In this document: positions 13,242-59,779 of the stretch, piece by piece | How positions within the stretch are numbered: position 1 is the first letter of the stretch | Layout of the letters: each line of letters opens with the position of its first letter | Program-made: the position numbers and the translations under genes | Notes under the pieces: model-generated | The model's database searches: none | What the model saw: only the letters and a program-made list of their open reading frames with translations | What the model was told of the DNA's origin: nothing | Assembly: GCA_963965975.1 (NCBI GenBank) | Contig: OZ014412.1 | Location: 4,714,501-4,778,500 of the forward strand | DNA from: Xestospongia bergquistia | Lineage: Eukaryota; Porifera; Demospongiae; Haplosclerida; Petrosiidae | Length of the DNA stretch: 64,000 nt | Direction: 5' to 3'

Positions 13242-13287
<46 letters not shown>

Positions 13288-13309
13288 CATCTATCTAATT
13301 ATCTCCCCT

Positions 13310-13343
<34 letters not shown>

Positions 13344-31716: not shown

Positions 31717-34499
31717 CTAAACCTGAAAACCATTTGCTACTGGTTTCCTAGCAACAAAAACTGTCCACGCTAAATCTTTGTTAGTTAGTGATGTTACTAG
31801 AGACTGCCAAAGAGTGGAGAATTTCTTCTTAGTATTGTCTTCAATACCCTAATCAGAAAGAGAGAGAGATTATCATAGAGCAACTCCATTATTACCTCTG
31901 TTGTCTCTAGTTTAGTTAAATCTTCAGTGAGATAACTGATATATTGTTGAGAGTGATCCTCAGACTGAACATTAATGTAGCCACTCTCCTCTAACAACTA
32001 TATCATATATCATTAATCAATGATATATAATAAACAATACAAAATCACTTACTTTGATGTAACTGTCAACAGCTATAATATTAAGTCCTTCAGATTGTAT
32101 GAGAGCTGCAGTATCTCCTCCAATTATTTCTTTACCTAAACAATAATCTCCCATTAGAAGTTGACCATTAGGTTTTAACCAACGCTACATTAAATATCAC
32201 AATATGTCATTGTTACAACAGTTTGAATTTACTTGAGTTTTTTTCAAAATAGTTTCTTTGTTCCCAATATATTCTAATGTTTCACGAGCAAATATAGCAT
32301 CAAACATATTACTGGCAAAATTAGTATGAGCTACATCAGCAATGTGAATGTGACCCTATGGGAGAATATTGAAATAAATTCTGTTTATGGGGTCTGGTAC
32401 CTTTTTAGCTTCAAGACTATTCATTCTTAAAACAGCTGCTTGACTAGCAAGAAGCGATAATTCCAAACCAGTCACATCAATATCACATTCCTATGACAAA
32501 GACATCTACTCAGTCATTTATTCATTATAATTCATACCTTGACAAGGTATGCTTCAAGTCCTCCTAAACCACACCCAACATCTAATACTAGGGAATTAGC
32601 TTTGAGATTAAGTTTAACAATCAATTCCTACAATAAATGTATTAATAAAAACTAATAAACAAATGTTCTTTACCTTAGAACAATCTAAACCTCCAGGAGT
32701 AACAAAACCATTACCAATTACTTTATTGTACACTTTCATATCCTCCTCGTTGTAAAGGGTTTTATCTAATATTTGTTGGCTATCGTTGATGGAAGGAGAT
32801 GATCCATTGACTTTAGTCTTCCTCCACAGGTAGTAAATTTGAGTTGGGTTACCTTGACAACGTACATAAGTCTGAGAATTCCCAGCAAAGACAAATTCAA
32901 AGAAATATGTCACATTATGTTCATCTGTATAACGTGCTGTACTGTAAAATTCATGATATTCCTAAACATAAAGAAAAAATGCATCAATTAGTTTACATTG
33001 TCACATGACTAACTGACCTTCATGCTACGAAGGAAAAATAAACCCACGTCTTGTGATGATGGACAGAATCCAGACACACTGTGGAAATGTGATTCCCGGA
33101 AGTATGTATAACCACCTGGCTTCACCATCCTAAAATAATAAAAATGTAGTTAATAGACCAGTACTTATACTAGTTAATAGACTAGTCTAATAATAGTTAA
33201 TAAAACAGTACCAATAATAGTTAATAGACCAGTACTAATAATAGTTAATAAACTAGTACTGTTTATAATTAATGTATAGCTGCAGGTTTGTGTAGAGCTG
33301 GCAATGAGGATGGGTAAAGTGCTCAATATAACATGATAATTCAGAGTTGGGGTCAATTATACAAAATTATAATTAATTACAATTATAATTACCATCAACC
33401 CATTATAAGTACATAATCTGGAGATGAGAATAAGCTATAGCTGGATCTAGTACATGTATAGGTTATTGTTGGCAAACTATAAGGGCTTTACTATTGATAC
33501 ATTGAGTGTATTAGAAATACATCCTGAGAGGTTGGGCAATAACATATTTATGGCTTGATACCACAAAGTGGTTTTAATGTTTTGAGGATCATGACTACAA
33601 GCAATTTATAGTTTGTGGTATTTAAGTGCATTATTATCAGCACTTTGAACATCTATGGTATAATGAGTTGTCATTTTATTTAAAAGTCATTGAGAATAAT
33701 AGTTGCAAATTGCAGCTTATTAACTACAATTGGAATTTCAATTACAGTTATTAACATCTGACAATATCCAATTATATTATAATTACAAAAAACTGTACCA
33801 GTTACAAATGTAATTAACTCTAACCCTGTAGGCCATGCACTTCATGTGGCAAGTGTCCACTTCACCCAGAGCTGGCCCTGGGTACATGTAGAAAGTACAT
33901 GAAAATCGGCTGGTTCTATCTAATATAATTGTTTGAATTAAAATAGATATCTATGTGAAAACACTCAGTTTGGACTTAAAGATCTGTTCTATTTTTGTAA
34001 CGTACATGAGAGAATTGTAAATGAACTTTTCAACTTCATTGTTATCCAAGTAATGGAGCAACCAGTTAGAGAAGATCATATCAAATGTGTTTGGTGGGTA
34101 ATCCAACTTGGTAGCATCTAATGTACGGAAAGTGATGTTAGAGTATTTAGGTCCATTGGTCTCCTCATTCTCTTTAACAAAAGCTTCCATAAAATCAGTA
34201 GCAATGACTGTATTGGCTTTCTTTGCAAGTTCTCCAGAGAGACGACTAAACAAGGAACAATGGATAACAGATAAAACCAATCTTTACATACCCAGATCCT
34301 GCTCCGAGTTCAAGCACGTCCATTCCTTCTAGATTAGGCAAAAGTTCAAGAACTTCAATTTTATCATATTCATAAATCTCTTTTGCCTTTTCATAATTCT
34401 TCTCGCCTACCATCAATTCCAGCTGGTACCGCTTTCAGTATTGCTCTCAACTCTTCTTTTCCAGAAATCATCTCGTTTGATTGCATGATCACTGGCCAT
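31717..34499 (-). pseudogene. PMT-A1: tandem phosphoethanolamine N-methyltransferase copy with one frameshift
   Basis: Exons, 5' to 3': 34292-34499, 34006-34245, 33018-33129, 32674-32961, 32538-32627, 32401-32490, 32233-32355, 32053-32184, 31896-31997, 31717-31848. Exons 2-10 are open and in phase. Exon 1 is 208 nt, one short of the needed phase. The break is just after the SGT motif (ggtaccagctggaattg), where A2 has one more base, so ATG 34499 leads to stops. Both methyltransferase domains remain readable: motif I is LELGAGSG in domain 1 and LDVGCGLGG in domain 2. The C-terminus differs from A2 and reads through to VFVARKPVANGFQV. An alternative start inside exon 1 (MVGEKNYEKAKE) would give a protein lacking only the N-terminal 50 residues, so partial function cannot be excluded. 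Confidence 0.85.
33135..33265 (+). repeat. Short tandem repeat in PMT-A1 intron 2
   Basis: Units of aatagttaatagaccagtac and variants, about six copies, lie just upstream of exon 33018-33129 in the gene's direction. Confidence 0.75.
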
Positions 34500-35130
34500 A
34501 TTTTATTGCATATGCTGCGTTATCCAATTACTACAAGAGGAAGTTCCGTCTGGGATGAGTATATACGAGACGATAGGCTGTTATAACGTTACAACAGAAT
34601 CCTGTGTAAGCTTGTGTTGTATTTTATTGCATAACCAAAGGATGAGTGAGCCAAGAGGAAATCAGCTTTTAGCTACTAATTCGTATAAATTATATAATAA
34701 TTAATTTTATTATAGATAATAAGTGTTTCTTCTCATTGTTTTACGAGCGACTAATTAAATTTAACCTCTTTCTTTAATCTTCGAAGATTCTCGTTCTCTG
34801 CCTATATTTCTAGCACTCAATAGCTATGGTCTTCAATAGACACTGCAATTATTTATTCAATCTTGTACCTCTAGTCAGTATTTTATTGTGAAGTGATTTT
34901 TTCAATTATAATCTTGTTCCTCTGGTAGCCATGGGAATTCTCAGATCTCAGAGGAAGGAGACGAGATAAGATCCAGCCAGGGACGTTTGTAACACGGACT
35001 CGTGATCCCACTATAAAAAAATTGTCTTGGTAAAATAAGTATAAATAGATATAAAATTATATTATTTTAAGGAAATTGAGAACAAATAATACAAGAATAG
35101 TACCAATAGTAAGAAATTAATTAAATTCAT
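34500..35130. other. Spacer upstream of PMT-A1
   Basis: About 630 bp, AT-rich, with no gene seen. It should contain the PMT-A1 promoter. Confidence 0.4.
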
Positions 35131-35268
35131 TCATTGTTTCTTAGCAACAAAGACCATCCACACTAAATCTTTGTTAGTTAGTGATGTTACCAGAGACTGC
35201 CAAAGAGTGGAGAATTTCTTCTTAGTATTGTTTTCAATACCCTAGTCAGAGAGAGAGAGAGCTAGAGC

Positions 35269-35341
<73 letters not shown>

Positions 35342-35910
35342 ATAGAGCAACTCTGTTATTATTACCTTTGTTGTCTCTAATTTAGTTAAATCTTCAGTGA
35401 GATAACTGATATATTGTTGAGAGTGATCCTCAGACTGAGCATTAGTGAAATGAAAATGAAATGTAAACATTTCACCTTTCACATAATCTAACCTTCATGT
35501 TACGATACACAGTTGGATTAATAGCTTGAGGTCGAGATCCAACAGGTCGAAAATGAGACTCTCTGAAGATTGTAAAGCCACCAGGTTGCAGCATCCTAAC
35601 ACTCAATGAAGAATTGTAAGGATCACAAATGTATGTGATTAACACTTCATGTAAAAGACCACCTATTACTACTACAGCCAACAACTGATGTGACAGCTGT
35701 ATCATATACATTGAGTTTATATTTCATATCATCATGTGCCATTTAAACTGATTTAAAATAATATTAACAATAATATGAACAAAAACTTGAGTTGGGTTAC
35801 CTTGACAACGTACATAAGTCTGAGAATTTCCAGTGAAGACAAATTCAAAGAAAAATGTCACATTATGTTCATCTGTAAAACATGTTTTACTATAAAAGTC
35901 ATGATATTCC
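35131..35910 (-). pseudogene. Scrambled A-type PMT relic
   Basis: In the minus direction it carries part of exon 4 (35787-35908), then exon 3 (about 35502-35613), then part of exon 9 (about 35366-35450), then exon 10 (35131-35249) ending in TGA. Exons 5-8 are missing and exon 4 lies before exon 3, so it cannot be a working gene. The junction inside the exon 9 piece continues straight into sequence matching the A2 intron next to exon 3 (38468-38510). The exon 10 piece is intact and nearly identical to A2. Confidence 0.85.
35258..35337. repeat. GA microsatellite in the PMT relic
   Basis: About 80 bp of GA dinucleotides at the position of the intron 9 pyrimidine tract. A1 has only a short GA run at the same place. 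Confidence 0.9.
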
Positions 35911-37250
35911 TAAACATAAAGAAAAAATGCATCTATTGGATTATATTGTCACATGACTGATATAGAACCATTAAGTACTGTTTTCTGTGGAGTGTATAAT
36001 GAAGAGTAGTGTCTATTCTGATATTTCACTATCCCCACAAGTTTATAATGGCACTGCCTACTTTTAATGTAGTTTTCTGAATGTGATACAAATAAACATA
36101 CATACAGTGTTAATATACAGATGTATGTGTTAGCTACATACATCTTATCTAATGTTTTATATACTTGTACTTGAACACTCAGTTCTGTTAAACATAACAA
36201 TTGATGTCATGAATGTTATTTGTTACAATATGTTTGACTAATGATGTTGAAGTCTTTGTTATGTAAATACATAAAGGTTGGCATGTTTTGTTACATCAAA
36301 AGTCTGAAGAGATTCACCACAACTTTCATACCTAAATTTATATTATACTAAACTTAGGGACAAATCTATGACTGATCTTGTCAAATAACAAGATTATAGG
36401 TACATACCCTTCTCAAATGTGGTCTACAATATTATCTAAATTATCTAACTCATCAAATAAAAATCAGTCTGAAGGTGGATTTTCTTGTTACCCTGTTCAA
36501 CATAATATTGAGTATCACTCTTAATATCATTACTAACATGTATTTTCACACACTACTAGTCTGTGTCCTACTATTGATGTAATTACATTTGTCAGATAGC
36601 TGATAAAAATATTACTGAATTATAACTTGTTTCCATCCAGTCATAAAAAAATTTGTTCTACTAGTTGTTTTGTAGTGTAGTCCATAATAAACATTTTAAA
36701 ATGTGATACAAGGCCTCACCTTGTATCAAATAATTCAGTTAAATTATTGACTAGTTGAACATAATACTCATGAGCATCTTGGTATCTATCAGGAACAAAT
36801 AATTCATGCGTATCTGTTTTCAATAATAAGCTCTGATATTTATTGTATTTTTCTCTTTTATTTGATAGACTTTGAAGAAGAGATTTTAATGGCAGTGTTA
36901 TTGTACTACTGCTATACATGTACATGTTGTATAGGTTTAGTAATACCTTCAGTAAACATACTCCTGTGTGACAGCATAAGTTTGTATTAATTTAAATTTT
37001 TTTAAAATTATACCTGACTTTGTACAATCACAACATGCATGTGTGCATTGTAGGAATTCTAAAAAATAGGGTGGTTCAGCAGACACTGGAGGACATCACT
37101 AACATTGTAATTGGTAGCTGCTAAAAAACCTTTAGTCTTTGTATGTATATAAATAGATATAAAATTATTTTAAGGAAATTGAGAACAAATATTACAAAAA
37201 ATGGGTGTATAGTTAATAACTATCACTTGTAAGAAAATAATTAAATTCAT
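35911..37250. other. Spacer between the PMT relic and PMT-A2
   Basis: AT-rich, no complete gene. It holds one USP-like exon (36720-36911). The sequence at 37140-37250 is 3' flank shared with the relic at 35040-35130. Confidence 0.5.
36720..36911 (-). pseudogene. Possible ubiquitin-specific protease (C19) exon, isolated
   Basis: An open segment flanked by a TATAG acceptor and an AAG/GTGAGG donor. It encodes PLKSLLQSLSNKREKYNKYQ, then DRYQDAHEYYVQLVNNL. The QDAHE motif is a hallmark of the USP catalytic domain. I found no Cys-box or His-box exon nearby, so this is probably a gene fragment, or one exon of a gene I could not assemble. Confidence 0.35.
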
Positions 37251-39614
37251 TCATTGTTTCTTAGCAACAAAGACCATCCACGCTAAATCTTTGTTAGTTA
37301 GTGATGCTACTAAAGACTGCCAAAGAGTGGAGAATTTCTTCTTAGTATTGTCTTCAATACCCTAGTCAGAAAGAAAGAGAGATTACAATAGAGCAACTCC
37401 ATTATTACCTCTGCTGTCTCTAGTTTAGTTAAATCTTCAGTGAGATAACTGATATATTGTTGAGAGTGATCCTCAGACTGAACATTAATGTAGCCACTCT
37501 CCTCTAACAACTATATCATATATCATTAATCAATGATAATAAACAATACAAAATCACTTACTTTGATGTAACTGTCAACAGTTATAATATTAAGTCCTTC
37601 AGATTGTATGAGAGCTGTAGTATCTCCTCCAATTATTTCTTTACCTAAACAGTAATCTCCCATTAGAAGTTGACCGTTAGATTTTAACCAACGCTACATT
37701 AAATATCACAATATGTCATTGTTACAATAGTTTGGACTTACATGAGTTTTTTTCAAAATAGTTTCTTTGTTCCCAATATATTCTAATGTTTCACGAGCAA
37801 ATATAGCATCAAACATATTACTGGCAAAATTAGTATGAGCTACATCAGCAATGTGCATGTGACCCTACGAAAAAATATTGAAACAGGCTCTGTTAATGGG
37901 GTCTGGTACCTTTTTAGCTTCAAGACTATTCATTCTTAAAACAGCTGCTTGACTAGCAAGAAGTGATAATTCCAAACCAGTCACATCAATATCACATTCC
38001 TATAACAAAGACATCTACTCAATCATTTATTCATTATAATTCATACCTTGACAAGGTATGCTTCAAGTCCTCCTAAACCACACCCAACATCTAATATTAG
38101 GGAATCAGCTTTGAGGTTAAGTTTAACAATCAATTCCTACAATACATGTATTAATAAAAACTAATGAACAAATGTTCTTTACCTTAGAACAATCTAGTCC
38201 TCCAGGAGTAACAAATCCATTACCAATTACTTTATTATACACTTTCATATCCTCCTCGTTGTAAAGGGTTTTATCTAACAACTGCTGAATATCAATTGCC
38301 GAAGGAGACTCGTTGACTTTAGTCTTCCTCCATAGGTAGTAGACTTGAGTTGGATTACCTTTACGATGAATGTAAGTCTGACAATTCCCAGCATAGATAA
38401 ATTCAAAGAAATATGTCACATTATTTTCATCTGTATAACGTGCTTTGCTAAAAAAGTCACGATATTCCTAAGGTGAAATGTAAACATTTCACCTTTCACA
38501 TAATCTAACCTTCATGTTACGATACACAGTTGGATTAACGGCTTGAGGTCGAGATCCAACAGGTCGAAAATGAGACTCTCTGAAGAATGTAAAGCCACCA
38601 GGTTTCAGCATCCTGTGTATAAGTAACACTCAATGAAGAATTGTAAGGATCACAATGTATGTGATTAACACTTAATGTAATCTATTAAAGGCACCCTATT
38701 ACTACCACAGACACTTCTTTCAACATCTGGTGTGATAATATGACAGCTGTATTATATGCATTTAGTTTATATTCATAATATCATGTGCCTGATTTAAAAT
38801 AATATTAACAATAATGTGAACAAAAGTGTTAGCATCATATTCTATAATATTTTAGAAGAGCTTGCCACTAACACATGATTGTAGGTTCTACAAATTATTA
38901 ATACAAGCTACTAAAATTGATATTCTAGTAACAAATGCTATTAGTTGTAATGACATATTTGAGAATTATTTGATAACTCCATTTGTTACAGAACAAATGA
39001 CTTACATGAGATTATTATAGGCATATTTGGTAGTCTCAGTGTCACTCAAATACATCAAGAGCCAGTTTGAAAAGATCAGATCAAATGTGTTTGGTGGATA
39101 GTCCAATTTTGCAGCATCTAGAGTACGAAATGTCATATTAGGATACTTGGGTCCATTGGTCTCTTCATTCTCCTTGACAAAGGCCTCAACAAAGTCTGTT
39201 GCCACAACAGATTTTGCCTTCTTAGCAAGTTCTCCAGAGAGACGACTAAAAAAATTAATTGTTATTACTATTACATTTATAACAACATAAACCAGTAGAA
39301 CCTGTTTCTAAAACCAGTTCTTACCCCGAGCCTCCTCCAAGTTCTAGCACATCCATTCCTTTCAAGTTAGGAAGGAGTCCAAGTACTTCCATCATGTCTG
39401 ATTCGTGAAGCTCTTTGGCTTGTTTGTAATTTCTCTCTCCTACCATCAATTCGAGAGAGGTACCACTCTCAGTCGGATCGCCGACCCAGCGATCCCAATA
39501 GTCTTTCATAATCTTACGGACTGACAAAGCATCTTGCTTTGAGACATCCACAATCGTGGATTCTTCGTCTGTCACCATCACTACCTTCTTAGATTTGTCG
39601 TCAACTAGCGCCAT
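37251..39614 (-). CDS. PMT: PMT-A2: tandem-domain phosphoethanolamine N-methyltransferase, intact, 10 exons
   Basis: Exons, 5' to 3': 39325-39614, 39006-39245, 38510-38612, 38183-38467, 38047-38136, 37910-37999, 37742-37864, 37562-37693, 37409-37510, 37251-37361. Total 1566 nt, 521 aa, in phase (plant PMT is about 490). Domain 1 has motif I VLELGGGSG and FSNWLLMYLSD, matching the plant N-terminal domain that methylates phosphoethanolamine. MLKPGGFTFFRESHF follows. Domain 2 has ILDVGCGLGG and MGDYCLGKE, with FARETLEYI where plant and Plasmodium enzymes have a catalytic His near the end (YSRDxxLH). PMT makes phosphocholine by three SAM-dependent methylations. A2 is the best-preserved copy and probably the one doing the classic job. 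Confidence 0.92.
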
Positions 39615-39722
39615 TTCTCTAGGTAACTGACTAGCTTATTCACGTAAAGGAAAAGCTATTTCAAAAACAATTACACGTGGCAACATAAAGGTCATTGTTC
39701 GAGCAAGGTCGACCAACGCCAG

Positions 39723-39771
39723 ACTCCAAGCTCGTGTTATTATTGAGTCAATAATAACACGAGTTTGGAGT
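39723..39771. repeat. 24-bp-arm palindrome 110 bp upstream of PMT-A2
   Basis: Inner arms ctcgtgttattattga (39731-39746) and tcaataataacacgag (39748-39763) pair perfectly around one base. The outer 8 bases on each side pair with one mismatch. It lies between the A2 start codon and the hAT relic. Confidence 0.88.
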
Positions 39772-39826
39772 TTGCAGCTGAGCAGGAATGCGGATGTAGA
39801 TAGATCAGGGGAGGAGGAAGATCATT

Positions 39827-40325
39827 TCAAGCTACAATAATTCGTGGGTCCCATTTTAATTTAAGAAAATTAATTATGTTAAAGAAAACCCATTGTATTT
39901 GTAAGTGTTCATGTTGATCGGTTCTGTCATTGTGAATGTACAACAGAAATAGATTATTCAACCTACAATTGGTCATCGTACTTCTAAGATATGTTTTAAT
40001 CCTTCGCAAAGAAGAGAATAACCTCTCTGCTATAGCACTTGTCACAGGATAAGTAAAATAGATCCTCAGCAATTTATCAATCTTTGTTAGCATTCCCTTG
40101 AAAACATCGGTTTTCTCCGTTGTATCAGCAATCATTCGTACATTTGTTACCTGCTTTATGGAATAGAGTCATTAGATGCAATTCTAATCATATCTGGAAG
40201 CATGGAAAGCTGAGCTTTGAGATGAGTAGGGTCAATGTCATACTTGATAATACTGTCATTGATTGCAAAAGTCACAAATTAACGTCAGGCATAAAAAGTA
40301 GGGGTCCTATAATACCCTTTGCATC
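39827..40325 (-). mobile_element. hAT-family transposase relic (C-terminal dimerisation region)
   Basis: On the minus strand an ORF of about 100 residues contains YFTYPVTSAIAERLFSSLRR, then IKTYLRSTMTNCRLNNLFLL. This is the hATC dimerisation motif of hAT DNA transposases (AERxFS...LK..R..M...RL..L). Upstream, LKAQLSMLPDMIR can be read in a second frame with stops around it, so the element is decayed and truncated. No DDE catalytic core or zinc finger is left. It separates PMT-A2 from the AlkD-like gene. Confidence 0.8.
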
Positions 40326-40330
40326 CCCTG

Positions 40331-40360
40331 CCTATACATAGACATGAGTCTATGTATAGG
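40331..40360. repeat. Perfect 13-bp inverted repeat
   Basis: cctatacatagac (40331-40343), loop atga, gtctatgtatagg (40348-40360). It sits at the edge of the hAT relic. A short A-type PMT scrap (intron 9/exon 9 start) follows at about 40383-40455. Confidence 0.85.
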
Positions 40361-40763
40361 AGGAGCAGGTAATGTTCTAATCAAAGAGAGAGTGATAGAG
40401 ACTATCATAGAGCAACTGTATATTACTACCTCTGTTGTCTCTAATTTAATGGTCTATCCATCTTGCTTTACACAAGTCCAAAAGGTTTTGTGCTCTGTTT
40501 GGCTGAACAGACTGCTTGTTTTTGTTAGCAGAAGCCAGAATCTTAGAAGACCCTTTATAATCCAACTGGAAGTTACAAATTTTAGTCGCTCATGTGTCAC
40601 AATTCAACTTACGACAAACCTACAACTTTGATAGCAGAAAAAAATCAAAAAATTACAAAATATTTAATTTGTAAAAGATTTATTTTGTCTTTCATATATA
40701 TACTCACATTCATACTGATTGCTTTTTATTGAGAAATGATTCTATAGTCATAAAGGAAAATAT

Positions 40764-41814
40764 CTAATGAATATGTTTAAGTGCCTCTTTGATAGATAAA
40801 TTAGATAGTTCTGTACGATGATCCTCAACAAATTTCTTCACAGCTACAGGATCTGTTCGAGCATATTGCCTCAAAGCCCAGCCGATGGCTTTAAGAATAA
40901 AAAACTCATCTTCGTGAGCTCGACTCAAACAGAATTGAAACAGCCTCTGATGATCTGTAGCAGTCTTGAGATTGAGTTGATGTAGAATGGCAACACGACG
41001 TAACCACAGGTTCTCATTTGTAATCCATTGGTTCATTAAAGGGACTCCCCACTGTGGTCTCTTTTCTACCATGTGACCTATAACTATAGAGTTACATATA
41101 AATAATGGTGGTAACTATTTAAGGCAGAGTCAGTGCCTATTTTAAGACACATTAGTCAAGTAAGGTGCCTTAAGCCCTATAGTTTACTTGACTCCTCCCA
41201 CTTGCCTGGATAAGATAGAGCATCCACAGAATCCCACCAACTCTTGCAAGTAATCAAATGTTGAACACAAGCCACACCCATTTTAAAATCTTCCTCTTCT
41301 GTACCAAGTAATACATGCCGATATTTGTGAGCTATGTCACACCCACATGATTGCATCTCCCTCATCTCTTCTTCCCAAAGAGAGCACAAACAAGACATAA
41401 GAACACCTAATAATAAAATAAACATTATAAATAAGTCAATGAATAAATATGACCTCTGTTTGTAAGCTCTTCACCATACATCTCTAGCCATTGTGACTGA
41501 GTGCTACGTCTCTCTGCAGCTTTAAAACCATAGAATTTAAACTTAAAACGAAAGTACTTTTCAATATTTTGTGAATAACGTTCATATTGTTTCCTGCTAG
41601 ATGACACTGCCTTCTCAAATAAAGCACGCAATTCATTCACAAGGTATCTCCCCCTCTGCATATCATTTTCTGATATCTCAGGCAGTGAAGACTCAACACT
41701 AACTCTCTTTTCTTCCTCTATTATAGTAGGAACTTTTTCACTTGTACTAGATGTATTAGTTTCTTTCCTTTGTTTCTTTTTCCCTGCTTTTTTACTAGTT
41801 CTAGTTTTAGGCAT
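40764..41814 (-). CDS. DNA alkylation repair enzyme (AlkD-like HEAT-repeat family), three exons
   Basis: Exons 41454-41814, 41206-41406 and 40764-41077 join to 291 aa. The first 50 residues are a lysine- and serine-rich tail (PKTRTSKKAGKKKQRKE), a likely nuclear signal. The core has KYFRFKFKFYGFKAAERRS, SWWDSVDALSYPG, and then NLWLRRVAILHQLN and FFILKAIGWALRQYARTDP, the pattern of the DNA_alkylation (PF08713) family. AlkD excises alkylated purines without flipping the base. The human lineage lacks an obvious AlkD. Intron 2 uses a GC donor (CCAG/GCAAGT). A broken inverted copy of exon 1 lies at 60089-60417. Activity is inferred from family. Confidence 0.85.
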
Positions 41815-42135
41815 ATTGTCATGAAGACCGCCCACGAAGTGAACTTAATTAAATATTTACCATAATTATATTTTACTATCATTGTTAAAACTTTGCATTC
41901 TTTTATTTTTATAGCTAAATTTTTATTAGCAAAAACAATATTTTAAATACTATAAAACTATTGTCATTAATATAATAAACAGCCATAGCTCCTCCTCTAT
42001 TTTAAGGACCTGATTTATTAGTGGTGGAGACAAATTAAGTTAATGAAAATAACTGCCTAACATCATTATTATTATTATTTATACAAAATAATCATTTTAA
42101 ATAATATTAAATCTTAACTAACAGCCACAACTCCT

Positions 42136-44294
42136 TTAAGGACCTGGTTTATTAGCAGTGAAGACTACAAAGATGAACTCTTTGTTACAGAGAGCTGTCA
42201 GAAATCCTTGCCATCTTCTTGACAACCATGTCTTACTAGCTTCAAACAAACCCTATATTAAATAGACATTATATCTTTAATACAAATAGTACAGTCATTG
42301 TTATACCACTGTTGTCTCTAGTTTAGTTAAATCTTGACTCAGATAATGGATGTATTGTTGAGAGTAATCCTCATATTGAACATTAATGTAGCCACTCTCC
42401 TCTAACAACTAAAGACAGACAACTATTGTATATTTCTGATATTATTATATGTACCTTCTTATATGAAGCAATATCTATCAGCTCTAATGACTCAATATTT
42501 ATAAAAGCTTCTGTCTCAGGAGATAGCTCTTCGCTACTCTTACAATAGTCACCAACCAATAGTTGACCACTAGGTTTTAACCATGTCTACAACAAGGCCA
42601 GTAAGGTATCCTCAGTTAAGTATTTAAAATCTTACCAAGAACCTTTTCAGTAAATCTGCTTTGTCACTATAATATTCTACAGTCTCTCGAGCATATACAA
42701 CATCATAGAATCCTGTGTCCAGGGGAACCTTAAAATAATCCTCTATACGAACATGTCCCTAAATAAAGAATCCATCCATTTATAATACAAAAAATGAATA
42801 GTACTTTGTTTAGTTTCTTATCATCCATTCTCAATATGGCATACTCAGTTGCATTAATTGATTCTTCCAGTCCTGTAACTTCAACACCTTGTTCCTAATA
42901 TATGTATTATATAATGCCATTTATTATCGATGACCACACCCACTTGTCCGAGGTAACAAATGAGACCACCAAGACTACTACCAACATCTACAAGTTGACT
43001 ATCAGCTTGAAGTGTTGTTAACTTTGATAATAACTCCTAATAGAAAATAATCTTATTAACTGACTTTCCATTTGTCCATTTATCTGTCCATCCATTTATT
43101 AACCCATTCATCCATTCATCTGCCCATCCATTTATTAACCCATTCATCCATTCATCTGTCCATCCATTTATTAACCCATTCATCCATTTTATCTGTCAAC
43201 TTATTTATTCATTCATCCATTTATACCCACTTTGGTAGATTGTAGTCCTCCAGGAGTTGAGAACCCATCTCCAATAATTTTATCATAGATCACAAGATTC
43301 TCTGAATTATAAACAGTATTATCCAATTTAAGTTGTAAGTCTATATAGGTGGCTTCATTCTCTTTGACTTTACGCCATGACCAGTAGATCTGTGCTGGAT
43401 GTTGCTTCATTAATATGTATGATACCAGGTTACCACAAAACAAGAATTCAAACCGGTATGTCTGGTTTAGATCGTCAGTATAACGTGCACGAATAAATGC
43501 ATCTGTGTAAGCCTAAATGGTCAGAAAAAGAAGTTGATAGATGTATAAAGATATATACATTACACAATAAATGGATTAACATACTCTAATTGTTCGATAA
43601 GCAGTTGGATTTTCAGATTGATAGCGAGTAATGACAGGACGAAAACATCCTTCTTTAAAGAAAATACAACCTCCTGGATTGAGTGTCCTAAAGACAAGCA
43701 GAGATAATATAATTCATATTTTTATGGTTATTTACATTAATGTTTTTTCTGCAAATTTAAACAAATCAGAATCATTGAGATACCCTAACATCCAACACCA
43801 ATAAATCATATCAAATGTGTTTGGTGGGTAATCCAACTTGCTAGCATCTAATGTACGGAAAGTGATGTTTGAGTATTTAGGTCCATTGATCTTTTTATTC
43901 TCTTTAACAAAAGCTTCCACGAAATCAGTAGCTACAAGTTCTTTTACTCTCTTTGCTAAATCACCTGACTGTCGTCTGAAAAATAATGTAAATATTATAA
44001 CAAATGATGTGTCACTTACCCTGTACCAGCTGCTAATTCAAGTACTTTCATGTTTGTCATATCAGGAAGAAGAGAGAATACTTCTCTTTTCTCCAGTTCA
44101 CTAAGGTGAGTAGCATGAGAATTATCTGCCTCTCCAAGCATGATCTCTAAAGAGGTACCACTTTCAGTAGTATCTCCAGCCCAACCTTCCCAGTACTCCA
44201 ACATGATCTTACGAACATCTTCTGATGTCTTCTTAGAAACATCCACTGAAACACATTCAGACTTATCTACTTGTATAGAAGTCATTGTAACCAT
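42136..44294 (-). CDS. PMT-B1: B-type tandem methyltransferase, intact, 10 exons
   Basis: Exons, 5' to 3': 44020-44294, 43736-43975, 43585-43687, 43231-43512, 42944-43036, 42805-42894, 42636-42758, 42455-42586, 42307-42408, 42136-42252. Total 1557 nt, 518 aa; ATG 44285 is the start conserved in the other B copies. Introns match A2 in position and phase. Domain 1 motif I is VLELAAGTG (Gly to Ala against A2), and the substrate region reads MIYWCWMLGYLND instead of IFSNWLLMYLSD. Domain 2 motif I is LVDVGSSLGG instead of LDVGCGLGG. LKPSGQLLVGDYC is kept. It belongs to the PMT family by structure, but the changed motifs make the reaction uncertain. Confidence 0.87.
43045..43228 (+). repeat. CCATTTATTAACCCATTCAT repeat in PMT-B1 intron 4
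   Basis: Units of ccatccatttattaacccat with ATCC-rich spacers, about four to five copies. Related units occur in the matching intron of PMT-B4 (58750-58850). Confidence 0.8.
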
Positions 44295-46697: not shown

Positions 46698-46730
<33 letters not shown>

Positions 46731-46738
46731 GGAAGGGA

Positions 46739-46778
<40 letters not shown>

Positions 46779-47391
46779 AAGAAAGAGGGAGGGAGAGAGA
46801 AAGAGAGCACTAAATTTTAAACACTAGTATTTTGTCTTACATAAGTACATTTTCTGGATATTTTAAGAAGTCAGGATCATTGAAATAGACCATTAACCAG
46901 TTTGAATATATCATATCAAATGTGTTTGGTGAGTAATCCAACTTGCTAGCATCTAATGTACGGAAAGTGATGTTTGAGTATTTAGGTCCATTGGTCTCCT
47001 CATTCTCTTTAACAAAAGCTTCCACAAAATCAGTAGCTACAAGTTCTTTTACTCTCTTTGCTAAATCACCTGACTGTCGTCTGAAAAATAATGTAAATAT
47101 TATAACATAATGATGTGTCACTTACCCTGTACCAGATGCTAATTCAAGTACTTTCATGTTTGTCATATCAGGAAGAAGAGAGAATATTTCTCTTTTCTCT
47201 AGCTCGCTTATTTGAGTAGCACGAGAATGCTGTGCTTCTCCAACCATGATCTCTAAAGAGGTACCACTTTCACTAATATCTCCAGCCCAACGTTCCCAGT
47301 ACTCCAACATGATTTTGCTAACATCTTCTGATGATTTCTTAGAGACGTCTACTGGAACACACTCAGACTCATCTACTTGAACAGAAGTCAT
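45129..47391 (-). CDS. PMT-B2: B-type tandem methyltransferase, intact, 10 exons
   Basis: Exons, 5' to 3': 47126-47391, 46841-47080, 46593-46695, 46115-46396, 45938-46030, 45799-45888, 45629-45751, 45448-45579, 45300-45401, 45129-45245. Total 1548 nt, 515 aa. Domain 1: LELASGTG and MIYSNWLMVYFND, which keeps the SNW and Tyr of A2. MITPGGYVFFRETCF follows. Domain 2: DVGSSLGG and VYARETVEYYSDK. A longer N-terminus from 47439 is open but rich in Cys and not conserved, so 47391 is preferred. It is head-to-head with INTS10 (151 bp). Confidence 0.88.
46697..46807. repeat. GA-rich microsatellite in PMT-B2 intron 2
   Basis: About 110 bp of GA and GGGA units directly before exon 3 in gene direction. 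CT runs occupy the same place in B3 (52522-52550) and B4 (56475-56513). Confidence 0.88.
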
Positions 47392-47542
47392 TGTGTCCCC
47401 ACGAGTGCAGTCTGACTGGTCGCAGCAACAAGTTTTCAAGAATACCGTTAATAATTAAACTATGATCTTATTAACAGAAAAGTGACCTTAAAGAAATAAA
47501 ATAGAAATTAGTGTAATAAGGGTATAACAAATAAGACTTAAC
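47392..47542. promoter_or_regulatory. Bidirectional region PMT-B2 / INTS10
   Basis: 151 bp between divergent start codons. A housekeeping Integrator gene and a duplicated metabolic gene probably share promoter sequence. Confidence 0.4.
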
Positions 47543-50500: not shown

Positions 50501-51244
50501 ACTACCATATACACTGAGTATTATTATTGTCAATGTGAAAGTAAGAATGGATATATGAATGATTGTAATGGATGTATGGATGATTATAATGGATGTATAG
50601 ATATTGTAATGGATACATGAATAATTATAATGGATACATGAATAATTGTAATGGATATATGATGCATTTAGTTTGTGTTGATGACTCATTCCTATTCCAC
50701 ACATTAGGATATTGTGTTCTCAGATTCCTGTACTGATACTGCCATTGGTCAATTAATGGTACTATGCCAATATGACTGGCCTAAAGAAACTGACTGTTTT
50801 CTATCACTGATTTCTCTGATACAGAAAAAAGGAAGTTTTACTTATACCAAATTTTTCAATTACATCATCAGTATCCACTTGTGCTAGTCCATTATTACAT
50901 ATAGTACTACAATATAGTGTATCATTGTTTGACATTATCTTTAACAATATAACATAGTTATTGAAATGTTGGAGGAGGTAATGTATCTTATTAATCAGAC
51001 TACTGTTAAAATTAACTTAATAAGTCAAGAAAATTCATCAAGGTAATGAATTAATTGATTAAATAATTTAGACATTGTTTTGTTTAGAACTCGTGCTGTT
51101 ACAAGAGGAGTTAATAATAGAGCTAAAGAAGAATTGACAGCTGCTATGGATAAACAGTTAACTCGATGTCAGGAATCCATTGACTTTGTACTAAGAACAT
51201 TTTTTAAACAAGAAAGATTATGTTTTATTGGTGGTGATGAATAA
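47543..51244 (+). CDS. INTS10: Integrator complex subunit 10 (INTS10), 18 exons
   Basis: Exons: 47543-47686, 47750-47817, 47876-48042, 48112-48194, 48247-48328, 48383-48556, 49051-49165, 49282-49457, 49570-49636, 49683-49744, 49794-49886, 49925-50088, 50133-50195, 50241-50343, 50461-50540, 50708-50870, 50958-51042, 51088-51244. Total 2046 nt, 681 aa (human 710). Family matches: start DDCEWIVEKSKEKL and AARAWILTAKSLFPYRF; SRLCQQWGVTDWSWLVAFQA; FNYIIIIEMLEEV; and VTRGVNNRAKEELTAAMDKQ near the end. An SV40-like basic signal PAKKRKVEDSD sits mid-protein. Integrator processes snRNA 3' ends and attenuates Pol II in the nucleus. The exon 4/5 junction is uncertain; 48198 with 48251 also keeps frame. 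Its 3' end is duplicated at 60598-61001. Confidence 0.92.
48860..48975 (+). repeat. 21-bp repeat in INTS10 intron 6
   Basis: Unit tttagcaaacacatttgtcca, about five to six copies. Confidence 0.88.
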
Positions 51245-51286
51245 ATGTACACTTTTATTTCAATCAGAATGTCAAAACATCAGTTA

Positions 51287-51720
51287 TTATTGTACATGTG
51301 AATTTCTGATCAAAAAAAGTGCACCATAGTCAACCAGGTGTATTTTTCCAACTTTCGACCTGTCAATTATGAACAGAAATTAAACAAAGTTTAAAATTTA
51401 TAATTTGTTACATTTTGATATTGTTTATGACAAGATTGGAATAGTTATAACAAGGAATGGTTTCCTTCTAAAATTGAAAGAAAGTATGGAGTATAATGGA
51501 AATGATAATTCTAAGGAATACACCCATATACTCCAGGTACCTTGTTATAATAATAATGATATAGTATGTTAAGTTGGTTTAAGTAATATCTGAAACAAGT
51601 ATTCTTAATGTTTGCAGTTGTCTTAAGTACTTCACTTAGTTTATTTTTTAACTCTTTAAAGATGTATAATATTGAGGATATCTTAGAAACAGATATTAAA
51701 TGTTATATACACAGTTTAAT
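51287..51720 (+). repeat. Duplication module, copy 1 (INTS10 3' flank)
   Basis: A block of about 430 bp with markers ctgtcaattatgaacagaaa and tttatgacaagattggaata. It recurs at 55228-55560 (upstream of PMT-B4) and 63060-63540. Each copy so far sits beside a PMT or INTS10-derived end, so it marks duplication boundaries. No conserved coding frame is maintained across the copies. Confidence 0.82.
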
Positions 51721-51929
51721 ATAGTTAGTACTTTGATAATTATTAGTTAGTACTTTGATAATTATTAAATGTTATTTGATCAGAACGTGACAACTGACAA
51801 AGGAGTGGTCCCACAAGGTAATTACAAATTATTACTATAATTTGTAATTTGTAATTTTTTATAGTATTATTCAAAATTAACTTTAAAGGTCGCTTTTCTG
51901 TACGATCCTCGCTGACCTTCAGATGAACA

Positions 51930-52517
51930 ATGACTTCTGTTACATTGGACGAAACTAACTTTACTCCAGTGTTTATAGATGTTTCTAAGAAGCCATCAGA
52001 AGATGTTCGTAAGATCATGTTGCAGTACTGGGAAGGTTGGGCTGGAGATACTACTGAAAGTGGTACCTCTTTAGAGATCATGCTTGGAGAAGTAGATCAT
52101 TCTCGTTCTATTCAGATCAGCAAACTAGAGAAGGCAGAGATATTCTCTCTTCTTCCTGATATGACAAACATGAAAGTACTTGAATTAGCAGCTGGTACAG
52201 GGTAAGTGACACATCATTATGTTATAATGTTTACATTATTTTTCAGACGACAGTCAGGTGATTTAGCAAAGAGAGTAAAAGAACTTGTAGCTACTGATTT
52301 TGTGGAAGCTTTTGTTAAAGAGAATGAGGAGTCCAATGGACCTAAATACTCAAACATCACTTTCCGTACATTAGATGCTAGCAAGTTGGATTACCCACCA
52401 AACACATTTGATATGATTTATTCAAACTGGTTGATGACTTTTTTCAATGATCGCGACTTCTTAAAATATCCAGAGAATGTACTTATGTAAGACGAATCCT
52501 AGCATTTAAAATTTAAT

Positions 52518-52550
<33 letters not shown>

Positions 52551-55032
52551 AGGATGATCACTCCTGGAGGTTATGTCTTCTTCAGAGAAACTTGCTTTCA
52601 TTATGTGGCGAGCCGCAATCGAACTGAAAATCCCAACATTTTTCGAACAATGAGAGTAAGTATGTATGTATTGTATAGGAGGATCATTTCAACATTAAAC
52701 CTATCATTAATTGCTTGTCCCAAATGATCGCTATAATTTGGTAGACACTAATTAAAATTGAGCTAATGATTTTTTATTTTTTTAATTTAGCAATTTTGCA
52801 ATTAAAGCTGTATTAGAGAACTTAGATCTTGCCTATATTAGATTTAACTCCCAGTAATGCTAGTAATAATATTAATTGTTTATTAATGACCTGACATATT
52901 ATACTGATCCTGACATATTACTTGTCAAGTGTTCTGCAGAGATCTAGAAGTCAATACTTCAGACAGCTTTTGAATATTTAGGAGCTAGTTAGGTTGAACT
53001 ATATATACTGCAGTCTATTGGTATTAATATGGTGAACTATACTGTAGTCTATTGGTATTAATATGGTGAACTATACTGCAGTCTATTGGTATTAATATGG
53101 TGAACTATACTGCAGTCTATTGGTATTAATATGGTGAACTATACTGCAGTCTATTGGTATTAATATGGTGAACTATACTGCAGTCTATTGGTATTAATAT
53201 GGTGAACTATACTGCAGTCTATTGGTATTAATATGGTGAACTATACTGCAGTCTATTGGTATTAATATGGTGAACTATACTGCAGTCTTTTGGTATTAAT
53301 ATAGTGAACTATACTGTAGTCTTTTGGTATTAATATGGTGAACTATACTGCAGTCTATTGGTATTAATATGGTGAACTATACTGCAGTCTATTGGTATTA
53401 ATATGGTGAACTATACTGCAGTCTATTGGTATTAATATGGTGAACTATACTGCAGTCTATTGGTATTAATATGGTGAACTATACTGCAGTCTATTGGTAT
53501 TAATATAGTGAACTATACTGCAGTCTTTTGGTATTAATATGGTGAACTATACTGCAGTCTATTGGTATTAATATGGTGAACTATACTGCAGTCTATTGGT
53601 ATTAATATAGTGAACTATACTGCAGTCTTTTGGTATTAATATGGTGAACTATACTGCAGTCTATTGGTATTAATATGGTGAACTATATCATCAATATAGA
53701 GTGAGGCATGTTGTATTAAATGTGCATCCTGTTATATTTATATATCATTTATAAAATATTAATGCATCCATTAATTTGTTCTATCTGTCCATTTAGGCAC
53801 ACAGAGATTCATTTGCTCGTGTTCGTTATACTGATGATCATAACCAGACATACAGGTTTGAATTCTTGTTTTGTGGTAACCTGGTATCATACATATTAAT
53901 GAAGCAACATCCAGCACAGACCTATTGGTTATGGCGTAAAGTCAAAGAGAATGAAGCCACCTATATAGACTTACAACTTAAATTGGATAATACTGTTTAT
54001 AATTCAGAGAACCTTGTGGTCTATGATAAAGTTATCGGAGATGGGTTCTCAACTCCTGGAGGACTACAATCTACCAAAGTGAGTATAAATGGATGAATGG
54101 ACATTCAGCTAATAAGATTATTTTCTATTAGGAGTTATTATCAAAGTTAACAACACTTCAAGCTGGTAGTCAACTTGTAGACGTTGGTAGTAGTCTTGGT
54201 GGTCTCATTTGTTACCTTGGACAAGTGGGTGTGGTTGTTTATAGTTAATGATATTATATAATAATACATTAGGAACAAGGTGTTGAAGTTATAGGACTGG
54301 AAGAATCAATTAATGCAACTGAGTATGCCATATTGAGAATGGACGATAAGAAACTAAACAAAGTACTATTCATTTTATTTGTCTTATAAATGGATGCATC
54401 TATATTTAGGGACATGTTCGTATAGAGGATTATTTCAAGGTTCCTCTGGACACAGGATTCTATGATGTTGTATATGCTCGAGAGACGTTAGAATATTATA
54501 GCGACAAAGCAGGTTTACTGAAAAGGTTCTTGGTAAGATTTTAAATACTTAACTGAGGATACCTTACTGGCCTTGTTGTAGACATGGTTAAAACCTAGTG
54601 GTCAACTATTGGTTGGTGACTATTGTAAGAGTAGCGAAGAGTTAAGTCCTGAGACAGAAGCTTTTGTAAATATTGAGTCATTAGAGCTGATAGACATTGC
54701 TTCATATAAGAAGGTACATATCATAATATCAGAAATATACAATAGTTGTCTGTCTTTAGTTGTTAGAGGAGAGTGGCTATATTAATGTTCAATGTGAGGA
54801 TTACTCTCAACAATACATCCATTATCTGAGTCAAGATTTAACTAAACTAGAGACAACAGAGGTATAACATTGACTATACTATTTATATTAAAGATATAAT
54901 GTCTATTTAATATAGGGTTTGTTTGAAGCTAGTAAGACATGGTTGTCAAGAAGATGGCAAGGATTTCTGACAGCTCTCTGTAACAAAGAGTTCATCTTTG
55001 TAGTCTTTATTGCTAATAAACCAGGTCCTTAA
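51930..55032 (+). CDS. PMT-B3: B-type tandem methyltransferase, intact, 10 exons
   Basis: Exons: 51930-52201, 52247-52486, 52553-52655, 53797-54078, 54132-54224, 54273-54362, 54410-54532, 54582-54713, 54760-54861, 54916-55032. Total 1554 nt, 517 aa, in phase. Domain 1: LELAAGTG and MIYSNWLMTFFND, in which the Tyr of A2's LLMYL has become Phe. Domain 2: DVGSSLGG and VYARETLEYYSDK. Intron 3 is swollen to 1.14 kb by a 34-bp minisatellite, while the same intron in B1 is 72 bp. Reading direction is opposite to B1 and B2. Confidence 0.88.
52995..53690 (+). repeat. 34-bp minisatellite in PMT-B3 intron 3
   Basis: Unit tattggtattaatatggtga then actatactgcagtc, about 20 copies, mostly identical. Most units carry CTGCAG. 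Confidence 0.95.
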
Positions 55033-55882
55033 AATGGAGGAGGAGTTGTGGTTGTTAGTAATGATTTAACGTTAAATCAAATGTATTATTTTTGTAGCAA
55101 TAATAATTATAATGTTAGGCAATTATTTTCATTAATTTAATTTGTCAACGAGGACTACACTTAGCAGTCCCAAATAATGAAAAGTGAAAAATATTCTAGA
55201 CAGGCACCCAGCTAATTATAATATTCATTAATAAATTTGACCTGCCAATTATGAACAGAAATTAAACAATGATTAAAATTTATCATTTGTTATAATTACA
55301 TTTTGATATTGTTTATGACAAGATTGGAACAGTTATAACAAGGAATGGTTTCCTTGTAAAATTGGAAGAAAATATGGAATATAATGGAAATGATAATTCT
55401 AAGGAAATATACTCGTGCTCCAGGTATCTTGCTACACCATTATAATAATAATAATGATATTGTATGTTAAGTTGGTTTAAGTAATATGTGAAACAAATAT
55501 TCTTAATGTTTGCAGTTGTCTTAAGTACTTCACTTATTTGTTTTTTCTGTTAATGTCAGAAATTATATAATAGAATCATTAGTTAATAGAAACTAAAATG
55601 ACTTTGTGTACAAACTAAAGTTGTACAGAAGATATCTTATATTGTAAGTTATAGACACAGTTTAATGTAGTTAGTACTTTGGTAATTCTTAAATGTTATT
55701 TGATTAGAGGAACTGGATCAGAATGTGACAAGGTATAGTGGTCACGAGATAATTATAAATTATTATTCAAAGTGGTTAATTAAAATAATTAACAATTATG
55801 ATTATAATTGACGTCTCAATTTTTCTGCTGTAGTTATTGCTTTCCTATTAACGGTCTTCTCTCACTGATCCTCAGGCAAACA
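55033..55882. other. Spacer PMT-B3 / PMT-B4 with duplication module, copy 2
   Basis: Positions 55033-55230 are PMT 3' flank, also seen at 60420-60590. Positions 55228-55560 are the second copy of the module at 51287-51720. The remainder is the PMT-B4 upstream region. No other gene is seen. Confidence 0.7.
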
Positions 55883-56470
55883 ATGACTTCTGTTACATTA
55901 GACGAAACTAACTTTACTCCAGTATTTATAGATGTTTCTAAGAAGCCATCAGAAGATGTTCGTAAGATCATGTTGGAGTACTGGGAAGGTTGGGCTGGAG
56001 ATACTACTGAAAGTGGTACCTCTTTAGAGATCATGCTTGGAGAAGTAGATCATTCTCGTGCTACTCAGATCAGTAAACTAGAGAAGGCAGAGATATTCTC
56101 TCTTCTTCCTGATATGACAAACATGAAAGTACTTGAATTAGCAGCTGGTACAGGGTAAGTGACACATCATTATGTTATAATGTTTACATTATTTTTTAGA
56201 CGACATTCAGGTGAACTAGCAAAGTGAGTAAAAGAACTTGTAGCTACTGATTTTGTGGAAGCTTTTGTTAAAGAGAATGAGGAGACCAATGGACCTAAAT
56301 ACTCTAACATCACTTTCCGTACATTAGATGCTAGCAAGTTGGATTACCCACCAAACACATTTGATATGATATACTCAAACGCATTGATGACTTTTTTCAA
56401 TGATGTTGAATTCTTTAAGTATCCGGAGAATGTACTTATGTAAGACAAAGTACTAGTGTTTAAAATTAAT

Positions 56471-56514
<44 letters not shown>

Positions 56515-59500
56515 GGATGATAACTCCTGGAGGCTATGTCTTCTTCAGAGAAACTTGCTTCCGTTATGTGGCGAGTCGTAATCGAACTGAAAATCCCAAC
56601 ATTTTTCGAACAATGAGAGTAAGCATGTATGCATTCTATAGGAGAATCATTTCAACATTAAACCTAGCTATCATTAATTTATTGTACCTAATGATTGCTA
56701 TAATTTTGTAAATATTAAAATTAGTGTTGTTTTAGTTTAGCATTTTATAATTTTAGTTAGTCATAGTTAGTTTTTCTGTAGGTGGAAGAATTTTAGTTAT
56801 TAGCTTTTCTGCTTTAAAATAATTTTAGTTAGTTATAATTGAGAAAGTTAGTTAAATTAATGAATGTATTATTACACTAAAGGTAATGTTTGTTTGTCTT
56901 AAGAAGTATTTCATTGTCTAAGTTTGTACCTGCCAATTGATTCTTATACCACTTTTGATGCATACTTAACTTTGGAAAATAACACTTTTGAATGGTGTTT
57001 ATGAGGCAGGTATAACCAAAATATCCTGAGCCACATATGCTAAGCTTGCATATAATTTTTCATTTTCTACTCAAAATCAAATGAGTCAGGCTTGTTCTGA
57101 TCAGGTAGCTGTCATCTAGAGTAAAAATAATCTTGTATAACAGTAATAGCACTATCATCATCAGCTATATTGTCTTCCTCTTCTATCCTATTATACACCC
57201 AAAGGTATACATGTGGTCTTACTACTCACTTTTATAACAGTAATAAGACTATCATTATCATTATTATCTTCCTCTTCTACCTTATTAAAGGCTATTATAC
57301 ACCCAAGGTGAAAAGTGTACATATGTTCTTCCTGCTCACTGATACATGACCTGCATATGGTTGCATTGAATAGTGTCATCATATTTACCAGTTAACTTAT
57401 CACTTACTAGTTATCATCTCATATACCTTGGTTTATCTTTTGTGTAGTGTAGTTAGGACAGTTATTTATTGAATATATTGTTTTAGTTAGTACTAACTAT
57501 AATAGTTAGTTAGTTTTCTTGGTTTCAAATAACTTATAGTTATAGTTAGTTAACTAAAAGACAAAAAGTCTAAGCTAAAAGAGTTTTAATTTTAGTTATA
57601 GTTAATTAAAACAACACTAAATAATTTTTGTTACTTTAGCAAAATCAGAGAACTTAAATCTTACCTAAATTAGATTGAACTCACAGTGAACCTAGTGATG
57701 ATAGAAATATGGTGAACTATACTGTAGTCTATTGGTATTAATATGGTGAACTATACTGTAGTCTATTGGTATTAATATGGTGAACTATACTGTAGTCTAT
57801 TGGTATTAATATGGTGAACTATACTGTAGTCTATTGGTATTAATATGGTGAACTATACTGTAGTCTATTGGTATTAATATGGTGAACTATACTGCAGTCT
57901 ATTGGTATTAATATGGTGAACTATACTGTAGTCTATTGGTATTAACATGGTGAACTATACTGTAGTCTATTGGTATTAACATGGTGAACTATACTGTAGT
58001 CTATTGGTATTAATATGGTGAACTATACTGTAGTCTATTGGTATTAATATGGTGAACTATACTGCAGTCTATTGGTATTAATATGGTGAACTATACTGTA
58101 GTCTATTGGTATTAATATGGTGAACTATACTGCAGTCTATTGGTATTAATATGGTGAACTATACTGTAGTCTATTGTATTAATATAGTGAACTATACTGT
58201 AGTCTATTGGTATTAATATAGTGAACTATACTGTAGTCTATTGATATTAATATAGTGAACTATACTGTAGTCTATTATTATTAATATAGTGAACTATACT
58301 GTAGTCTATTGATATTAATATAGTGAACTATACTGTAGTCTATTGGTATTAATGCGGTGAACTTTACTGTTGATCCATTAATTATTGAGTATGTATCCAT
58401 TATAAAATCTCAATACATCCATTAATTTATTTGATCTGTCCATTTAGGCTCACAGAGATATATTTGCTCGTGTTCGTTATACTGACGATCTAAACCAGAC
58501 ATACCGGTTTGAATTCTTGTTTTGTGGTAACCTGGTAACATACATATTAATGAAGCAACATCCAGCACAGATCTATTGGTTATGGCGTAAAGTCATAGAG
58601 AATGAAGCTACCTATATAGACTTACAACTTAAATTGGATAATACTGTTTATAATTCAGAGAACCTTGTGGTCTATGATAAAGTTATCGGAGATGGGTTCT
58701 CAACTCCTGGAGGACTACAATCTACCAAAGTGAGTATAAATGGATGAATGAATAAATAAGTTGACAGATAAATGGATGAATGGGTTAATAAATGGATGGA
58801 CAGATGAATGGATGAATGGGTTAATAAATGGATGGACAGATGAATGGAGAGTCGGTTAATAAGATTATTTTCTATTAGGAGTTATTATCAAAGTTAACAA
58901 CACTTCAAGCTGGTAGTCAACTTGTAGACGTTGGTAGTAGTCTTGGTGGCCTCATTTGTTACCTTGGACATGTGGGTGTGGTCATTGATAATAAACAGTG
59001 TTATATAATAATACATTAGGAACGAGGTGTTGAAGTTACAGGACTGGAAGAATCAATTAATGCAACTGAGTATGCCATATTGAGAATGGACGATAAGAAA
59101 CTAAACAAAGTACTGTCCATTTTACTTGTTTTATAAATGGATGCATCTATATTTAGGGACATGTCCGTATAGAGGATTATTTCAAGGTTTCTCTGGACAC
59201 AGGATTCTATGATGTTGTATATGCTCGAGAAACTGTAGAATATTATAGTGACAAAACAGGTTTACTGAAAAGGTTCTTGGTAAGACTTTAAATACTTAAC
59301 TGAGGATACCTTACTGGCCTTGTTGTAGACATGGTTAAAACCTAGTGGTCAACTATTGGTTGGTGACTATTGTAAGAGTAGTGAAGAGTTAAGTCCTGAG
59401 ACAGAAGCTTTTGTAAATATTGAGTCATTAGAGCTGATAGATATTGCTTCATATAAGAAGGTACATATAATAATATCAGAAATATACAATAGTTGTCTGT

Positions 59501-59779
59501 CTTTAGTTGTTAGAGGAGAGTGGCTATATTAATGTTCAATATGAGGATTACTCTCAACAATACATCCATTATCTGAGTCAAGATTTAACTAAACTAGAGA
59601 CAACAGAGGTATGACACTGACTATACTATTTGTATTAAATATATAATGTCTATTTAATATAGGGTTTGTTTGAAGCTAGTAAGACATGGTTGTCAAGAAG
59701 ATGGCAAGGATTTCTGACAGCTCTCTGTAACAAAGAGTTCATCTTTGTAGTCTTCACTGCTAATAAACCAGGTCCTTAA
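55883..59779 (+). pseudogene. PMT-B4: B-type tandem methyltransferase with one nonsense codon
   Basis: Exons: 55883-56154, 56200-56439, 56516-56618, 58448-58729, 58879-58971, 59020-59109, 59157-59279, 59329-59460, 59507-59608, 59663-59779. Lengths and phases match B3 exactly. In exon 2, the codon at 56225-56227 is TGA where B1, B2 and B3 have AGA (Arg of LAKRVKEL), so translation would end after about 99 residues. The same change creates a GTGAGT donor-like site. Elsewhere the frame is fully open. The conserved Trp of SNW is Ala here (IYSNALMTFFND). It is a recent pseudogene, or an allele or assembly error. It diverges little from B3. Confidence 0.87.
57700..58365 (+). repeat. 34-bp minisatellite in PMT-B4 intron 3
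   Basis: Same unit as in PMT-B3 intron 3, about 19-20 copies, but most units carry CTGTAG instead of CTGCAG and the 3' units are more diverged. Confidence 0.95.

Follow-up and report, generated by a model that had tools for sequence, protein, structure and literature searches.

Phosphoethanolamine methyltransferases (PMTs) are known in several arrangements. The Plasmodium enzymes (PvPMT, 4iv0; PkPMT, 4iv8; PfPMT, 3uj6) are homologous to the second methyltransferase domain (MT2) of the sponge proteins described here, but unlike these two-domain proteins, PfPMT performs all three methylation steps with a single domain (PMC2824672). Arabidopsis PMT1 and PMT2 (5wp4, 5wp5) share with the sponge proteins the collinear arrangement of MT1 and MT2 as well as motifs in MT1. 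However, they keep the catalytic histidine and the phosphate-binding arginine and tyrosine of MT2, which are replaced in all six sponge copies; the same residues are also kept in PvPMT and PkPMT. Nematode PMT-1 (HcPMT1, 4krg; CePMT-1, 6wlf) possesses an N-terminal MT1 like the sponge proteins, and this domain catalyzes the first step only (PMC10269165, PMC2824672). The later steps are left to another protein, and the same may hold for the sponge proteins. The nematode PMT-2 structures (4krh, 4ine) match residues 197-509 of the sponge copy A3.

Among animals, PMTs have been named in oyster (PMC12040131), sea anemone (PMC6554683), shrimp (PMC10706788), salmon (PMC5902856), frogs and fish (PMC2824672), and in the literature on further animals as well. 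The presence of a PMT in an animal is therefore not new. An earlier note on this DNA had presented the locus as plant-type PMTs in an animal genome; the two-domain PMTs are indeed there, but in view of the animals just named the surprise was overstated. A description of such an animal PMT cluster was not found in the titles and beginnings of abstracts listed. Nematode PMT-1 is the nearest known arrangement, and judged from their residues the cluster proteins probably resemble it in performing the first step only, their MT2 being non-canonical.

Gene models, duplication and family placement

The window is a stretch of 64,000 nucleotides from the sponge Xestospongia bergquistia (positions 4,714,501-4,778,500 of its contig; the genome comprises 146 Mb in 21 contigs). 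Gene models were obtained with a purpose-written spliced aligner. Positions 31717-59779 of the window hold, in the assembly, six PMT genes of ten coding exons each and with GT-AG introns, two of type A (A1, A3) and four of type B (B1-B4), together with the relic A2. A1, A3, B1 and B2 lie on the minus strand, B3 and B4 on the plus strand.

31741..34422 (-): PMT copy A1, type A, disrupted (spliced alignment and exon reading); exons 1-5 at 34292-34422, 34006-34245, 33018-33129, 32674-32961 and 32538-32627, exons 6-10 at 32401-32490, 32233-32355, 32053-32184, 31896-31997 and 31741-31848
35101..35958 (-): A2, type A relic (blastn between copies and spliced alignment)
37254..39614 (-): A3, type A copy with ten exons, open over 521 aa
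39827..40135 (-): upstream of A3, piece of a hAT transposase from its C-terminal dimerisation region (E 4e-8)
42139..44285 (-): B1, type B copy with ten exons, open over 515 aa
45132..47391 (-): B2, type B copy with ten exons, open over 515 aa
51930..55029 (+): B3, type B copy with ten exons, open over 517 aa, with a long intron 3 (52656-53796)
53004..53687: 34-bp minisatellite in B3 intron 3, about 20 copies
55883..59776 (+): B4, type B, ten exons, TGA in exon 2, long intron 3
57706..58370: 34-bp minisatellite in B4 intron 3, about 20 copies

Exons 2-9 measure 240, 103, 282-288, 90-93, 90, 123, 132 and 102 nt, with exon 3 of A1 (112 nt) as the only exception. Spliced modelling thus recovered the six copies with a shared ten-exon structure that the earlier note had claimed, and the gene models and repeats also uphold its local expansion into two diverged types. 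The six copies are not all working ones, since A1 and B4 are disrupted; the reading frames of A3, B1, B2 and B3 are uninterrupted. In A1, exon 1 carries a frameshift, the start region is not recognisable and exon 3 lacks the conserved NPTxYR stretch. In B4, the TGA in exon 2 was flagged in two analyses and the conserved tryptophan of NWL is replaced by alanine. Of the at least three relics claimed, one clear one was found, A2, which consists of pieces of exons 4, 3, 9 and 10 with exons 4 and 3 in reversed order, plus a weak candidate, a 72-bp piece at 40377-40448 that resembles the end of exon 9 and intron 9.

Duplication within the cluster is far beyond chance, as is evident from inverted repeat arms of 635-666 nt with 96-97% complementarity and from directly repeated pieces, reported at up to 300 nt each, with up to 98% identity. 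The minisatellites in intron 3 of B3 and B4 consist of 96-97% matches. The repeats show an origin of the cluster by tandem and inverted duplication, which the hAT fragment upstream of A3 might have aided. Non-PMT sequences at the flanks of B1 and B4 (41485-41737 and 60165-60417) are 98% complementary, so the duplicated unit exceeds the gene. Two other regions of the window carry further coding matches: a frame between the A and B groups, at 40764-41072 (-), matches a DNA alkylation repair enzyme (E 4e-31), and frames at 8945-17974 (+) match Cbl_N, RING and UBA, perhaps as one Cbl-like gene, as would suit the genome of an animal.

The membership of the cluster proteins in the tandem-domain PMT family, as proposed earlier, was confirmed by matches to solved structures over both domains. 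Residues 21-508 of A3 (preliminary model) match Arabidopsis PMT2 with an E-value of 5e-84 and PMT1 with 5e-83, and align collinearly to residues 9-490 of 5wp5. For B2, residues 46-477 match Arabidopsis PMT2 (5wp5 25-450) collinearly over both domains (E 9e-82) and residues 30-480 match PMT1 (E 1e-79). The best 13 of 40 structure matches of A3 are PMTs (E ≤ 2e-21), followed by a match with E 4e-9, and so are the best 13 of 23 of B2 (E ≤ 6e-20), followed by one with 8e-12. With MT2 of the corrected A3 alone, all 11 sequences listed with E ≤ 1e-10 are PMTs. The Pfam matches are to general or other methyltransferases, and so are those NCBIfam matches that were listed (25 of 53 and 25 of 28), none of which reaches its cut-off. 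An assignment to another methyltransferase family was rejected, since PMT structures outrank all other listed matches of A3 and B2; by homology, both proteins stand closer to PMTs than to other methyltransferases.

A3 and B2 each contain two stretches matching Methyltransf_25 and two matching Methyltransf_11, so that each protein carries two class I methyltransferase domains in collinear order. The two proteins are 53% identical to each other (MT2 alone: 124 of 256 residues), and A3 is 34% identical to AtPMT1 over the alignment. An AlphaFold model from a four-row alignment had a mean pLDDT of 35 and was left out of the conclusions. A viral or phage origin was also considered and rejected: pattern searches in viral_contigs (57 and 115 matches) returned none that encodes a relative and a search in phages returned zero matches, although with such short patterns both are weak negatives. 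Among the prokaryotic pattern matches, 3 of 73 are relatives, 27-32% identical in the best segment. Elsewhere in the genome, other class I methyltransferase frames, about 250 codons long, occur in arrays (contig C1, 25.38-25.43 Mb, and contig C7, 141-149 kb).

Motifs of MT1 and altered residues of MT2

In HcPMT1, the pocket of the first step is formed by Trp14, Met26, Met27 and Trp123 (PMC10269165). Both tryptophans are retained in A3, B1, B2 and B3. Met26 and Met27 lie in an alignment-ambiguous stretch, where MAFFT gives Thr/Ser and HMMER gives Leu/Met for A3. The SAM motif of MT1 is recognisable in the open copies, and A3 additionally retains FSNWLLMYLSD, FFRESxF and NPTxYR. These conserved motifs suggest that MT1 would bind SAM and phosphoethanolamine and produce phospho-monomethylethanolamine (PMME), the entry step to phosphocholine. 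A point against this is the departure of type B, whose copies read LELASGTG or LELAAGTG in place of the LELGxGxG of A3 and plants, with B1 having WCW instead of SNW. A conserved upstream open reading frame has been reported for plant and Xenopus PMTs (PMC2075485); by eye, no common peptide was seen in the 600 nt upstream of A3 and B1-B4, 5' UTR introns aside.

The cluster MT2 is recognisable over its length as a PMT MT2, whereas the nematode PMT-1 structures match the MT1 half, their best stretch with A3 ending by residue 262. For PvPMT, Y16/H129 is described as the putative catalytic dyad, Y24, Y157, R176 and Y178 as phosphate ligands, and I33, G60 and D82 as SAM contacts, I33 and G60 via the backbone (PMC4357015). 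We read these nine positions off a multiple alignment of the six copies with Arabidopsis and Plasmodium PMTs. AtPMT1 agrees with PvPMT at eight of the nine, A3 and B2 at four each. All six copies retain Y16, Y24, G60 and Y157, and all six have H129 changed to Tyr, R176 to Glu, Y178 to Leu and D82 to Glu (PvPMT numbering). R124 is kept as well, and D125 is replaced by Glu. The Tyr-His dyad and the phosphate-binding Arg/Tyr are thus incomplete in every copy, whereas H129, R176 and Y178 are present in both Arabidopsis and both Plasmodium sequences compared. Since the catalytic histidine and two phosphate ligands are absent, the second and third methylations are most likely not the work of MT2 and would require a separate enzyme. 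The earlier note was right about the PMT family, but its functional inference overlooked this loss of the catalytic His and the phosphate-binding Arg/Tyr in all copies, as well as the disruption of two of the six.

The alternative that both domains work as in plants and convert phosphoethanolamine to phosphocholine, with the MT2 substitutions being tolerated, is unlikely in our estimation, even if it survives better than the others. Both domains are present, Y16 of the dyad as well as Y24 and Y157 are retained, and MT2 appears to be under constraint rather than drifting freely, given that dN (0.54-0.58) lies below dS (1.4-1.6) between types A and B in exons 5-8 and 10. Together with R124, the kept residues make an altered but active MT2 possible. 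However, ordinary bifunctionality has to accommodate the replacement of residues kept in the Arabidopsis and Plasmodium sequences in six of six copies, and an MT2 identity of only 29-31% to plant MT2 (27-31% to plant and Plasmodium domains together) despite 40-44% between plants and Plasmodium. The glycine 62 of motif I is moreover retained in type A only and is Ser in type B (GSS for GCG). In trees of eight sequences each, without A1 and B4 and with different outgroups, the stem leading to the window proteins measures 0.98 for MT2 and 0.70 for MT1. The comparison was made with plant and Plasmodium PMTs, and the change in MT2 may be general in animals.

A bolder proposal is an animal PMT lineage in which MT2 stayed under constraint after its phosphobase pocket had been traded for a new conserved one (Tyr for His, Glu for Asp, Glu for Arg and Leu for Tyr). 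The fused enzyme would then have a further methylation activity of unknown kind or an allosteric sensor, and conversion would keep the array uniform; we consider this proposal quite improbable. It is similarly doubtful that MT2 was neofunctionalised to methylate a different amine. With Glu at the position of the phosphate-binding Arg, such a domain would prefer a substrate that is positively charged and unphosphorylated. The changed residues are common to both types, A3 and B2 agreeing at eight of the nine named positions compared with 124 of 256 over MT2 (hypergeometric P 0.014), and type A MT2 has an intact SAM motif. On the other hand, this P value comes from nine positions in one sequence pair, and type B is without the second glycine of the SAM motif.

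Gene conversion and the question of selection in the array

Divergence is distributed very unevenly along the genes. Between A1 and A3, dS falls from 1.9-2.0 in exons 1-2 through 1.2 (exon 3) and 0.40 (exon 4) to 0.047 in exons 5-10; among the six pairs of B copies it is 0.02-0.08 in exons 5-10 and 0.05-0.85 in exons 1, 2 and 3 taken singly. Between the types, exon 9 is 88-90% identical, compared with 52-58% for the other MT2 exons (5-8 and 10), and its dS is 0.15-0.21, well below that of its neighbours, while the flanking introns are unlike. A3 and B2 differ at 12 of 102 nt in exon 9 and at 248 of 543 nt in the other MT2 exons, and none of 20000 codon-column shuffles of this pair gave an equally similar 34-codon window. 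The tracts concerned are:

31893..32000 (-): exon 9 conversion tract between types in A1, 90-91% identical to each B copy
37406-37513: equivalent exon 9 tract in A3, 89-90%

In exon 2, A1 differs from B2, B3 and B4 at 56, 56 and 53 of 240 positions and from A3 at 64, which makes these three B copies the nearer ones; B1, at 66 differences, is not. This pattern fits gene conversion within and between types, with an exchange of exon 9 between types and a homogenisation of the MT2 exons within each type, both of which are supported by the sequence comparisons. If conversion homogenises the other exons, the higher dS and higher divergence of exons 1-3 are to be expected.

Amino-acid variation among the B copies peaks in columns 160-220 (14, 10 and 9 of 20 per block), which lie over the MT1 pocket region, with a second block of high variation in exon 1 (columns 60-80, 11 of 20). 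The variation in columns 158-221 may reflect relaxed constraint or diversification. Positive selection on this region was rejected, as dN/dS of the B pairs is at most about 0.7; dS is raised there, too, so older divergence spared from conversion can explain the variation. Where the ratio could be computed, dN lies below dS in nearly all exon groups, and the exceptions rest on few changes (for instance B2-B4 exon 4, with dN 0.019 and dS 0.016). A selection for more or altered methylation, as suggested earlier, finds no support in these values. That most copies are becoming pseudogenes and the array does no more than one gene would, as the two disrupted copies and the relic might suggest, is nevertheless very improbable, given four copies open over 515-521 codons and dN below dS between the types where computable.

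Preferred reading and its meaning

We therefore return to di-domain PMTs in which MT1 performs the first step and MT2 is non-canonical, in an array shaped by duplication and gene conversion, a reading that we regard as reasonably likely. MT2, which is retained over its full length and in type A still has the SAM glycine motif, would persist for a structural or regulatory role or act on an altered substrate, and the two later methylations would fall to another enzyme, as nematode PMT-1 relies on PMT-2. Gene conversion would homogenise the 3' MT2 half within the types and have moved exon 9 between them, in an array with two of its six copies disrupted.

The array clearly exemplifies gene conversion between diverged paralogs at the level of exons. 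Should our reading of MT2 be false, the cluster would, conversion aside, amount to the usual kind of tandem expansion within a known enzyme family. If it is true, the studied nematodes may not be the only animals to have divided the phosphobase pathway among proteins. This would bear on choline synthesis in animals and on the question which residues can be given up before the later methylations cease.
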